Part shown: in pieces, positions 209 through 4,589 of the stretch
Layout of the letters: each line of letters opens with the position of its first letter
Numbering within the stretch: position 1 is the first letter of the stretch
Assembly (NCBI GenBank): GCA_016840965.1
Contig: JAEORI010000368.1
Coordinates: 1-7,334 of the forward strand
From: Candidatus Thorarchaeota archaeon
GTDB lineage: Archaea; Asgardarchaeota; Thorarchaeia; Thorarchaeales; Thorarchaeaceae
Direction of reading: 5' to 3'
DNA length: 7,334 bases
Made by a program: the position numbers and the translations under genes
The notes under the pieces: generated by a model
Told to the model about the DNA's origin: nothing
What the model saw: only the letters and a program-made list of their open reading frames with translations
The model's database searches: none

Positions 209-571
209 CTATTCATATCCAAATACACGCAGCTCTGTTTTCCAAGTTTCAATTATTGTTTTGAGCGGAGTCCCAAGTATTCTAATTCTCTCAAAGTTTA
301 ATTCGCCCACTCCCCTTACTGCAGCTTGTTCGAGATATGGTATGTCATTTGGATACACCCCTGCGATTCTAACAGCGATACAATCAAGGGCAAGGGGGTC
401 TTGGCTAGCAAGAATTGTATTGAGAATGAATGGGTCTTTCCCTCTTGTATTTGTCATATCAACATCATTGCTTACAACTATTGCACCAACAAGAAGTATC
501 TTCAAGATATATCTCAGTTGATCCTCATAAATCCTGTACTTCTTAGGTCTGTAGATGGGTTCTGGGGGTCT
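209..571 (-). pseudogene. C-terminal remnant of a DUF362-family protein
   Basis: The minus-strand frame from 571 down to the TAG at 211-209 contains a segment typical of the end of DUF362 proteins: ILASQDPLALDCIAV, then RIAGVYPNDIPYLEQAA, then a GVGELNFERIRILG-like tail. In that family the S-x-DP-x-A-x-D signature follows a small glycine-rich loop. Family members usually have about 300 residues or more; only about 100-120 remain. No ATG, GTG or TTG exists in frame before a weak TTG at 505-503, and the frame is closed by a stop at 574-572, inside the 23-base repeat. The missing N-terminal part would lie where the leucine-rich-repeat gene now begins. This suggests truncation at the repeat junction. 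A short expressed protein starting at TTG 505 cannot be excluded. Confidence 0.55.
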
Positions 572-1993: not shown

Positions 1994-2259
1994 ATGTTTC
2001 TACTCAACTTTAGATTTGCTCATTTCCTGTCTGGTATGCAGACGATCAATGAATTCCCGATCATGATTGCATCTATTTACTAGTTCTATGGGGACTTCTT
2101 GCTTCGCCAAACGATTATCGAAAAAGGAAGAATCTTCTAGATTGGATGAACCGTCATAACGTAAAAGTGGAGAAAGCACGTAGGAAACTAGATAATTCGA
2201 GAGTTGAAACTGAACGACTTACAAGTCAATTAAAAGAAAAAGGGATGAGTGGGTTTTGA
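1994..2259 (+). pseudogene. Interrupted small membrane/coiled-coil reading frame
   Basis: This gap of about 365 bases holds no intact gene. An ATG frame at 1994 runs 29 residues, ending in FPIMIASIY, to TAG 2081-2083. A second frame, open from 2053 to TGA 2257-2259, has no usual start before ATG 2146. It reads YLLVLWGLLASP, then a strongly charged K/E/R-rich stretch resembling a coiled coil (VEKARRKLDNSRVETERL). Joining the two by one frameshift near 2071-2083 would give a protein of about 88 residues with one membrane helix and a cytoplasmic coiled coil. The amino-acid makeup of the second frame looks genuinely coding. It could be a decayed gene, a sequencing error, or only the 37-residue ORF from 2146. 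No family is recognised. Confidence 0.35.
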
Positions 2260-2268
2260 CTCCCACTC
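2247..2268. terminator. Hairpin terminator between convergent units
   Basis: GAGTGGG (2247-2253) pairs perfectly with CCCACTC (2262-2268) around an eight-base loop containing TTTT. It overlaps the last codons of the small plus-strand frame and lies 7 bases beyond the ahcY stop codon on the other strand, so it could end transcription in both directions. No long U-tract follows on either side. Confidence 0.45.
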
Positions 2269-2275
2269 GATTATT

Positions 2276-3563
2276 CTAAGTTCCTTCCGCATATGCTCGT
2301 GCATAGCGTTTCTGTTCCTCTGTCCACTGGTCAATGCTGATACCCATCGTTTCGAGCTTGGCTAATGCTGTTTCATTATCAAGTTCTTTCGGGAACTCGT
2401 ATACTGCTGCCTTGAGACTCTTGCCGTTTTTGGCCATCCAGATCATCGCGTTCAACTGGCTCGAGAAGCTGAGGTCCATAACCTTTCTAGGAAGCAGCAC
2501 CAAATGCTAACTTCTCACTAGGATGTCCCTCGGCGGCTGCAAGGTTTGCTAGTCTACCTTCTCCAAGCAAATAGAGGAATCGACCGTCCTTGGTTTCGTA
2601 TTCATCAAGAGCATTTCTCACTCTCTTCTTGCTCTTACTTAGAGCCATCAAGTCTGGTTCATTTACTTCGACATTATAATGACCCAGATTGCCCATGATT
2701 GCACCACTCTTCATCTTCTTCATATGCCTGCCAACAACAACATCCTTCATCCCTGTGGCAGTGAAGAAGACGTCTCCCAGTGGAGCCGCATCATCCATCT
2801 TCATGACTTGGTACCCGTCCATTCTGGCTTGTAAAGCCTTGACAGGGTCGACCTCGGTGACTATGACATCTGCGCCGAGCCCTCGTGCTCGAAGAGCCAT
2901 TCCACGACCGCAATAACCGTAACCAGCAATGACAACAGTCTTCCCAGCAACAAGAATGGCAGTGGCTCTCAGGAGACCATCGAATGCACTCTGCCCGGTG
3001 CCGTAGACATTATCGAATAGGTGTTTTGTATCTGCGTCGTTGACTGCCATAATAGGATACTTTAGAGCTCCATCTTCAGCCATCGCTCTTATCCTGATGA
3101 CCCCGGTCGTTGTTTCTTCCGAACCCCCGTAGAGGTTTGGTATCATTTCCTTGTGTTTGTTGTGCAGTGTGAATATCAAATCCGCACCGTCATCGAGTGT
3201 GAGTGTTGGTTTGATCTTCAGAGTCTGTTCAATACACCAATAGTATTCCTCAGTATTCAGACCATGCCATGCAAAGACAGGTACGCCATTGGTTGCTAAG
3301 GCTGCTGCTACTTGGTCATTTGTTGAGAGTGGGTTACATCCTGACCAAGCAACCTCAGCACCAGCTGCTCTGAGAGTTTCTACGAGTACTGCTGTTTCTT
3401 TTGTCACATGTAAGCAACCTGCAATCCTCATTCCCTTGAGGGGTTTCGTCTTGGAGTACTTCTCTCGCAAATGCATGAGAACTGGCATATGTTTCTCTGC
3501 GTAATCGATGAGTTTCCTACCTTCTTCAGCAAGACCAATATCTTTGACTTTATAGTCAGTCAT
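2276..3563 (-). CDS. ahcY: S-adenosylhomocysteine hydrolase, intron-containing (two exons)
   Basis: This enzyme reversibly splits S-adenosylhomocysteine into adenosine and homocysteine using tightly bound NAD, relieving inhibition of methyltransferases. Exon 1 is 3563-2516 and exon 2 is 2484-2276. Spliced, it gives 418 residues, normal for the archaeal form. Family signatures: GCLHVTKETAVL (49-60), WSGCNPLSTND (73-83), FAWHGLNTEEYYWCIEQT (97-114), GSEETTTGV (147-155), VNDADTK (174-180) and DNVYGTGQS (184-192). The NAD-binding GYGYCGRG is at 214-221, GNLGHYNVEV at 291-300, and GHPSEVMDLSF spans the splice junction at residue 350. The C-terminus ends YAEGT and lacks the KPDHYRY-type tail seen in many bacteria and eukaryotes. 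ATG 3563 is preferred because the family N-terminus starts there and GGAGG lies at 3580-3576; the upstream in-frame extension would run into the divergent gene. Unspliced, translation stops at 2487 after 358 residues, the last few of them intron-encoded, without the conserved C-terminal part. Confidence 0.93.
2485..2515 (-). other. 31-nt archaeal pre-mRNA intron with bulge-helix-bulge motif
   Basis: Read on the minus strand, exon-side CTAG (2521-2518) pairs with intron-end CTAG (2490-2487) as the 4-bp central helix. Bulge 1 is TGA (2517-2515) and bulge 2 is AAA (2486-2484). Inside, GAAG (2514-2511) pairs with CTTC (2494-2491), then AGCA pairs with TGCT around a TTTGG loop. Outside, ATC (2524-2522) pairs with GGT (2483-2481), including one G-U pair. 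Cutting between bases 2 and 3 of each bulge removes 31 bases and joins AGTG to AGGTT, restoring Ser-Glu-Val of the family motif exactly. The intron splits a GAG codon after its first base, is not a multiple of three, and carries an in-frame TAG (2489-2487). The motif geometry matches introns cut by the archaeal tRNA-splicing endonuclease. Confidence 0.87.
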
Positions 3564-3650
3564 TTGAACCACAGACCTCCTTGAAACCACAATGTATATG
3601 AATGCTACATAGCAATTTTGAATAAAGTGCATTAAAAAAGAGAGAAAAAT
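3564..3650. promoter_or_regulatory. Shared divergent promoter region of ahcY and the Lrp-type regulator
   Basis: The 87 bases between the two start codons are AT-rich. TGTATATGAA (about 3594-3603) would suit a TATA box for the plus-strand regulator gene, with a leader of about 27 bases. CTTTATTCAA read on the minus strand (about 3620-3629) would suit ahcY, leaving its GGAGG (3580-3576) inside the transcript. Both assignments are by position only. A regulator binding here could act on both genes. Confidence 0.4.
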
Positions 3651-4589
3651 ATGCAATTAACACTATCAGAAGCTGAAAAGATGCTTTTAGAGGTTCTAGT
3701 ACAGAACTCTCGATACACTCCCTCTGTCATTGGACAAGTACTTGGAAAGAGTCGAAACTGGGTTTCACGTACCATCAGAGGTCTTGTGAAGAATGGTGTG
3801 ATTCGTAGCTACACCACAATTGTTGATCCCTCACAAGTAAAAGCCGCAAGAGACACTATCCTCTTTATGAAAAGCAATCCTAGAGAGCAAGATGTGAGTG
3901 GGCGAGTTTTGCAGTTTGATGAACTTGAATCGTTGGATGGTATAGCTGGCGAGTTCTCTCTTGTTGGGTTCTTCAGGTTCGACAGTTCTGGTGCATTTGA
4001 GGATCTACTCGATAGGGTTGACAATGTAGTAGCAAGCTCTGGAGCTGGAAAATACAATCTAGTCCAGATTCTCACCACTTACAAGAAAAATCGATTCAAA
4101 ATTGCACTCAGAGAGTCAACTGAGTCATACCTCTCTCCAAAGGAACTGGCAATACTCAGAACTATGCATCGTCAAAAACCAACAGCTGAAAAACCATTTC
4201 CTCTCTCACAGGAAGCAATTGGGAAGCTAATGAAACCTACCATGAGCCAACCTGCTGTTTCTAAGGCAATAGAGAAGCTCCTGATTAAAAGAGCAATAGT
4301 CGGACATTCAATTGATATTGACTTTAGTTACATCGGTCTACCTGTGAAATTCTTTGTCAGGGTGAAGGTATCCCCGGGCACTGCAAGTGAAACCGCGCAG
4401 GAACTCACAGATATGGATGAGGTATGGAACCTTTATCGAACTAGTGAAGACTACACACTATTTGCTATTGTACGAACAGAAAGCATCGAATGGTTCAATA
4501 AATTCCTTCGAAAATTATACACGAATGAGAACGTTCTTGATACGCAGTCCTATATCTCTCTTGAAGAGTGGTTTATTCCATTTCACTGA
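3651..4589 (+). CDS. Tandem Lrp/AsnC-type transcription regulator
   Basis: The 312-residue protein appears to be a duplicated Lrp/AsnC architecture. The first winged helix-turn-helix spans about 5-55 (TPSVIGQVLGKSRNWVSRTIRGLVKNGVI) and is followed by an alpha/beta effector-like domain at about 64-145. The second helix-turn-helix spans about 161-218 (LSQEAIGKLM...SQPAVSKAIEKLLIKRAIV), followed by a second alpha/beta domain at about 228-308. A single Lrp unit is about 150 residues, so this one chain resembles two protomers. Lrp-family proteins bind DNA as dimers or higher oligomers and often sense amino acids, but the ligand here cannot be read from sequence. It is transcribed divergently from ahcY with only 87 bases between starts, which suggests control of itself and of ahcY (inference). 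The start has only a weak purine-rich AGAGAG before it. Its 3' end overlaps the convergent membrane gene by 17 bases. Confidence 0.8.
   Translation: MQLTLSEAEKMLLEVLVQNSRYTPSVIGQVLGKSRNWVSRTIRGLVKNGVIRSYTTIVDPSQVKAARDTILFMKSNPREQDVSGRVLQFDELESLDGIAGEFSLVGFFRFDSSGAFEDLLDRVDNVVASSGAGKYNLVQILTTYKKNRFKIALRESTESYLSPKELAILRTMHRQKPTAEKPFPLSQEAIGKLMKPTMSQPAVSKAIEKLLIKRAIVGHSIDIDFSYIGLPVKFFVRVKVSPGTASETAQELTDMDEVWNLYRTSEDYTLFAIVRTESIEWFNKFLRKLYTNENVLDTQSYISLEEWFIPFH

Follow-up and report, generated by a model that had tools for sequence, protein, structure and literature searches.

A predicted bulge-helix-bulge intron in the ahcY mRNA of Asgard archaea and its possible link to homing endonucleases

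In a contig of 7,334 nucleotides (nt) from a Candidatus Thorarchaeota archaeon (JAEORI010000368.1, hereafter the window), the ahcY gene for S-adenosylhomocysteine hydrolase is interrupted by a 31-nt insert with the structure of an archaeal bulge-helix-bulge (BHB) intron. We propose that this predicted intron would be cut out of the ahcY mRNA by the splicing endonuclease EndA, with the exons likely rejoined by RtcB, and that it likely arrived with a homing-endonuclease element which replaced the 3′ end of the gene; we give this reading a probability of about 0.7. Its parts differ in strength: on comparative grounds we are highly confident that the insert is a real BHB mRNA intron, and its spread by co-conversion with the homing-endonuclease element appears only slightly better than an even bet.

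The Pfam search placed AdoHcyase and AdoHcyase_NAD at 2487-3656 and the AdoHcyase C-terminus at 2276-2503, both on the minus strand, so that ahcY lies in two pieces. Exon 1 (2516..3563, minus strand, as all ahcY features below) runs from the ATG at 3563 to the GHPS codons plus the first base of the next codon, the predicted intron occupies 2485..2515, and exon 2 (2276..2484) extends from EVMDLSF to the stop. The ahcY frame breaks after GHPS and, if left unspliced, stops at 358 amino acids with the tail EKLAFGAAS, whereas excision of 2515-2485 restores GHPSEVMDLSF and gives a product of 418 amino acids without gaps against intronless relatives (92.6% to protein P0001). The insert coordinates proposed in a first-pass annotation of this DNA correspond exactly to cleavage after the second base of each 3-base bulge, and the in-frame stop and the motif restored by these standard cuts, both claimed there, were found as described. 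Over the window, Rfam returned nothing at gathering scores and ARAGORN no tRNA.

The central helix pairs CTAG at the end of exon 1 (2518..2521) with CTAG in the intron (2487..2490), whose TAG is the stop codon of the unspliced frame. It is bordered by the 5′ bulge TG^A (2515..2517) and the 3′ bulge AA^A (2484..2486), which hold the predicted splice sites, and is followed by the inner helix GAAG/CTTC (2511..2514 and 2491..2494) and the inner hairpin stem AGCA/TGCT (2505..2508 and 2496..2499). The window thus has the two 3-nt bulges on opposite strands, with a helix of 4 base pairs (bp) between them, at the exon-intron borders of the archaeal BHB motif, as the first-pass annotation had drawn it; the outer helix is of 3 bp only, one being G-U. 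Shuffling the insert with the exons fixed gave equal pairing at these cut sites 94 times in 100,000 trials for mononucleotides and 45 times in 20,000 for dinucleotides. The pairing therefore exceeds chance, as had been claimed, because few shuffles match it and because it is kept in six relatives.

These relatives come from a sample of 47 Asgard genomes from the class of G001, with an ahcY match in 44 (one single match in each) and the site on a contig in 42. An insert was present at the identical base in 6 of the 42 (G001, G002, G003, G004, G033 and G037), in independent assemblies, and the other 36 were without it. Across the seven DNA versions, including the window, its length is 31 or 32 nt; the spliced product reads HPSEVM in 6/6 sequences and, on direct reading, in G037 as well. 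At the protein level, 17 of the best 120 of 7999 relatives end soon after GHPS in tails that resemble one another (for example EKLAFVAAS, VREAFAAS and VRRAFAAL), and two of the 17 probably belong to genomes already among the six. The tail of P0078 is longer, with 57 nt from GHPS to the stop vs 27-36, which hints, from the protein only, at a longer version of the intron. Among 63 further loci (L018-L080), 40 had no insert and 23 fell below the anchor cut-off, 15 of these with intronless spacing and the rest undecided (L042 ends before the site).

The inserts of the relatives differ in sequence and keep the pairing, in favour of the first-pass annotation, which would have taken loss of the pairing as a refutation. 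All four central pairs are formed in the window, G001, G002, G004 and G033, the G037 insert also pairs on the seven-sequence alignment, and 93.3% of the pair cells in that alignment are standard. Changes on both sides were seen at one central-helix pair (U-A to C-G, exon with intron) and at three inner pairs, so that pairing is conserved by compensatory change across the seven sequences. The covariation score was 0.276 vs 0.129 in shuffles, with none of 500 as high, and lay above all slid controls, with 8 double-change cells; the set is small, consisting of seven related sequences only.

Several observations weigh against the splicing interpretation. The free-energy minimum of the window lacks the exact BHB and uses another outer helix, G003 keeps only 3/4 central pairs, the first inner pair of G033 is mismatched, and the outer helix of G004 lacks its first pair. 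Two of the five covariation measures were matched by some shuffles, namely the number of pairs changed on both sides (4, reached by 16/500) and that of further pair types (8, reached by 167/500). G003 and G006 each yielded a single EndA gene. Folding energies did not discriminate, those of the 59-60-nt pieces being ordinary (z +0.16 to -1.78, six sequences); a 71-nt piece of the window reached z -2.08, and 9 of its 200 shuffles did as well.

A frame break with an in-frame stop in metagenomic assemblies could also mean a decaying pseudogene or an assembly error. The identical site in independent assemblies, the single ahcY match per genome and the compensatory changes argue against it, as does the state of exon 2: codon counts anchored at VMD gave, for six intron-bearing pairs of genes, 24-31 silent and 6-16 replacement differences, and for six intronless pairs 25-36 and 6-13. 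By this comparison exon 2 of the intron-bearing genes appears constrained as in intronless genes, and we regard decay or error as very improbable. The ribosome might instead cope with the break, by bypass of 31-32 bases, by a frameshift with readthrough, or by making two separate polypeptides. Known sites of ribosomal bypass have a hairpin and a stop, and both occur here at the break; against this, lengths of 31 and 32 call for different frames, the window has AAG ahead of the landing site where the take-off codon is GAG, and the exon-intron helix covaries, which bypass would not need. The chance of such an explanation seems to us minimal.

Genes for the required enzymes were found in all relatives searched: EndA-family genes in 8/8 genomes, with two paralogues in 6/8, and RtcB in 8/8. 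Tyr, His and Lys are the catalytic residues of EndA; by inspection, one paralogue has the Tyr-His-Lys set and the other is without the His, suggesting that the two may form an (alpha-beta)2 enzyme. This is one of four types of archaeal splicing endonuclease (PMC12397907). In G001, 12 of 29 tRNA matches were at least 100 nt long, and ARAGORN gave introns in five tRNAs of G001 and G004, three of them 29, 30 and 32 nt long and the remaining two 9 and 17 nt. Introns are thus common in the tRNAs of relatives, some similar in size to the ahcY insert; abundant tRNA introns have been described in other Asgard lineages (PMC11291895). Because the site recurs with covariation, relatives hold EndA, RtcB and tRNA introns, and exon 2 is constrained, the case for splicing is strong, with excision and ligation in the cell inferred from sequence. 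Same-site recurrence, compensatory changes, a single ahcY per genome and the splicing-enzyme genes all support the BHB mRNA intron reading with which the first-pass annotation had started.

The distribution of the intron is scattered. On an exon-1 protein tree built by a quick method (117 rows; P0042, P0054, P0069 and P0086 of the 120 proteins left out), 18 changes are required to account for the 18 intron-bearing rows. Starred branches force no fewer than 12 of these, and the total is not below that for shuffled labels (mean 17.0). P0102, with the intron, and P0114, without it, are almost identical in exon 1. The introns of the window and G002 are 94% identical, although no other gene compared exceeds 77% identity to exon 1 of G002.

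Such a pattern may also come from a real BHB intron that is ancestral and immobile, with many losses by precise deletion and with the swaps of the 3′ end described below as unrelated recombination. A precedent for losing a BHB pre-mRNA intron is cbf5, where the distribution of the intron has been explained by presence in a common ancestor and at least two losses (PMC2738675). Distant clades share a similar intron core, and the intronless ahcY of G025 (L166 / L103) keeps the CCTAGTGA flank typical of intron-bearing genes, with a partial endonuclease gene behind it, and is possibly a footprint of intron loss. A covariance search of the 47 genomes with stricter filters gave no convincing copy of the intron outside ahcY: its six strong matches were all model-building sequences, hence no independent proof, and six weaker ones were five empty ahcY sites and one isolated match in G002. 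Strong 3′ shifts in divergence are seen between intronless genes too. Against an ancestral intron stand the many losses needed for 18 changes at 18 intron-bearing tips, the similarity of the window and G002 introns on dissimilar exons, and the fact that the window and G001 have the intron together with an unusual 3′ segment. We therefore hold it to be the strongest competitor and nonetheless unlikely.

The preferred reading, an intron that arrived with a 3′-end-replacing element, draws on the divergence of ahcY around the site. Between the window and G026, the nearest genome, divergence rises from 6.4% far upstream to 22.5% after the site (p 3e-10, uncorrected), leaving exon 2 far above exon 1, and the shift begins about 20-35 nt before the site. 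Between G043 and G045, both intronless, it jumps at the GHPS codons, from 4.7% to 29.5%. When six intron-bearing genes were each compared with their nearest gene, a significant 3′ shift was found in the window and G001, regional rate differences being a confounder of this comparison. In G001, exon 1, the intron and exon 2 are followed by about 1.5 kb with a NosD-like gene and by a second ahcY 3′ end starting at ATCC, which then continues into sequence found downstream of ahcY in G031 (82% over 932 nt).

Five displaced full-length 3′ ends (VMD to EGT, inside contigs) were found, one in G001, one in G025 and three in G032 (one with a stop), and all begin within the GHPS codons. The corresponding position in the window, GGACATCC (GHP codons, 2521..2528), lies just before the 5′ splice site and is a putative crossover or target site. 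Other displaced 3′ ends, among the matches listed, are those of G022, G030, G040, G042 and G021, whose starts are degenerate or truncated, or which lie at contig ends. Taken as sequence patterns, these data indicate that from this site on the ahcY 3′ end has been exchanged between some lineages. Varied genes stand beside displaced 3′ ends at L198, L199 and L203 (G032, G022), one with HD-CE and HATPase domains. PADLOC gave only weak matches on the neighbouring genes (best 1.2e-6), and exon 2 had no relative in the viral contigs scanned. We also considered a recombinase attachment site as the cause of the swaps and dropped it, since Pfam on 17 proteins revealed no integrase, and a LAGLIDADG gene took its place.

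Genes of one LAGLIDADG homing-endonuclease family, with the fold of these enzymes, stand convergently behind ahcY in 5/47 genomes, one of them as a remnant; a deeper homologue search gave 8 proteins. In the window, a C-terminal remnant of such an endonuclease lies at 2080..2260 (plus strand, convergent with ahcY), with 38% identity to P0127 over the aligned part; it matches the G025 gene over 187 nt at 70.6% nt identity (E 5e-15). The window locus therefore combines a shifted exon 2 with an endonuclease remnant, the displaced 3′ end being absent from 1-2275. In G040, 126 nt at the end of contig C15 match the exon-2 end on C4 without a difference and are followed by the endonuclease, a partial 3′ duplicate and then the gene which stands next to ahcY in G039, so that here the endonuclease lies between two copies of the target 3′ end, as in the mORFs of fungal mitochondria discussed below. 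Duplications of the 3′ end also occur at endonuclease-flanked genes for OTC, ScpB and aminotransferase V.

A possible mechanism would begin with a cut by the endonuclease near the GHPS codons of an ahcY that has no intron. An occupied allele would then serve as repair template and pass on the donor 3′ exon, with or without the intron; where the intron is included, EndA would cut the BHB from the ahcY mRNA and RtcB would join the exons, so that splicing would take the intron junction out of the mature mRNA. The intron may in addition split the endonuclease target and hypothetically shield the allele from re-cutting. In its widest form, a free-standing LAGLIDADG family would home into the 3′ ends of housekeeping genes and swap the last exon, and the ahcY cassette, with a minimal BHB intron at the cut site through which splicing mends the message and shields the gene, would be a selfish spliceable gene-end cassette; this we offer tentatively, at somewhat less than even odds.

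The link between the intron and the endonuclease has to be weighed against a number of findings which do not favour it. All five genomes with the endonuclease at ahcY are intronless, and the endonuclease frame is complete only in G040 and G032. No intact endonuclease was found together with the intron behind one ahcY in the sampled genomes; of the seven intron-bearing loci only the window, whose intron is gene-less, has a remnant, though the contigs of G002, G033 and G003 end near the site. The two 3′ copies in G040 show 96% identity, and the start of the duplicate falls within exon 2 instead of at GHPS. OTC, ScpB and aminotransferase V show no frame break, the strong 3′ shifts are shared by intronless genes as mentioned above, the shift in G003 and G033 is only near the junction, and G004 and G002 have no excess. 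Finally, the displaced 3′ end of G001 resembles G026 only a little more (77%) than its active one does (72%).

The rest of the window downstream of ahcY has the appearance of a variable island. Positions 1-205 match sequence downstream of ahcY in G026 (76% nt), and the stretch from there to ahcY looks variable. A short frame at 209-505 (minus strand) is apparently a truncated remnant, since 238-485 aligns over 248 nt (75% nt identity) with a section of a longer gene found downstream of ahcY in G005 (L155). A 44-nt direct repeat with a TATA-like stretch (559-602 and 1935-1978, 82% identical) flanks a leucine-rich-repeat gene at 615-1910, which suggests tandem duplication or exchange of leucine-rich-repeat genes in this stretch.

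Introns of the BHB type in protein genes had been called rare by the first-pass annotation, and the documented case we found is indeed the pre-mRNA intron of cbf5 in Crenarchaeota, whose splicing has cDNA support (PMC2738675). The ahcY intron differs from it in the gene, in the archaeal group and in that its splicing is predicted from sequence; the parts covered of the cbf5 account mention no homing endonuclease or 3′-exon swap. Among the small hairpin BHB introns of Thermoproteales 16S rRNA, Pog.S1205 is co-converted by the neighbouring endonuclease of Pog.S1213 (PMC4496867). Like Pog.S1205, the ahcY intron is shorter than 50 nt and has no gene of its own, and in the window it lies near the remnant of a LAGLIDADG gene; the neighbouring enzyme of Pog.S1205 is able to move the intron. 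Pog.S1205 differs in being in an rRNA gene, with the enzyme in a second intron 8 nt away, whereas the enzyme at ahcY is a free-standing convergent gene behind the target. Fungal mitochondrial mORFs replace the 3′ ends of atp6, atp9, cox2 and nad3 (PMC3630166): a foreign 3′ end precedes a LAGLIDADG gene, and the native 3′ end is displaced beyond it. Some ahcY loci may have a like arrangement, if their active 3′ end is the foreign one. As described there, mORFs are mitochondrial and their gene hybrids carry no BHB intron, though one is listed with a group I intron, and the endonuclease gene at ahcY differs from them in being convergent and in having extra helix-turn-helix matches. Full-text literature searches of open-licence papers found no paper on the ahcY intron by title or abstract, and the covered parts of three reviews (PMC6379350, PMC4090602, PMC13149111) do not name it. 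A BHB mRNA intron, a co-converted hairpin intron and a 3′-end-replacing LAGLIDADG gene are thus each known singly, and their proposed combination at ahcY is new.

Near-identical ahcY pairs with and without the intron, such as P0102/P0114, allow tests of the gain, loss and effect of a pre-mRNA intron. If true, a recurrent BHB intron in a metabolic enzyme of Asgard archaea would mean that mRNA splicing of the tRNA type extends beyond Crenarchaeota and that gene callers truncate enzymes of this kind, as in the 17 of 120 proteins ending at this site, and the link to 3′-end-swapping homing endonucleases, if true, would provide a route by which such introns may spread.
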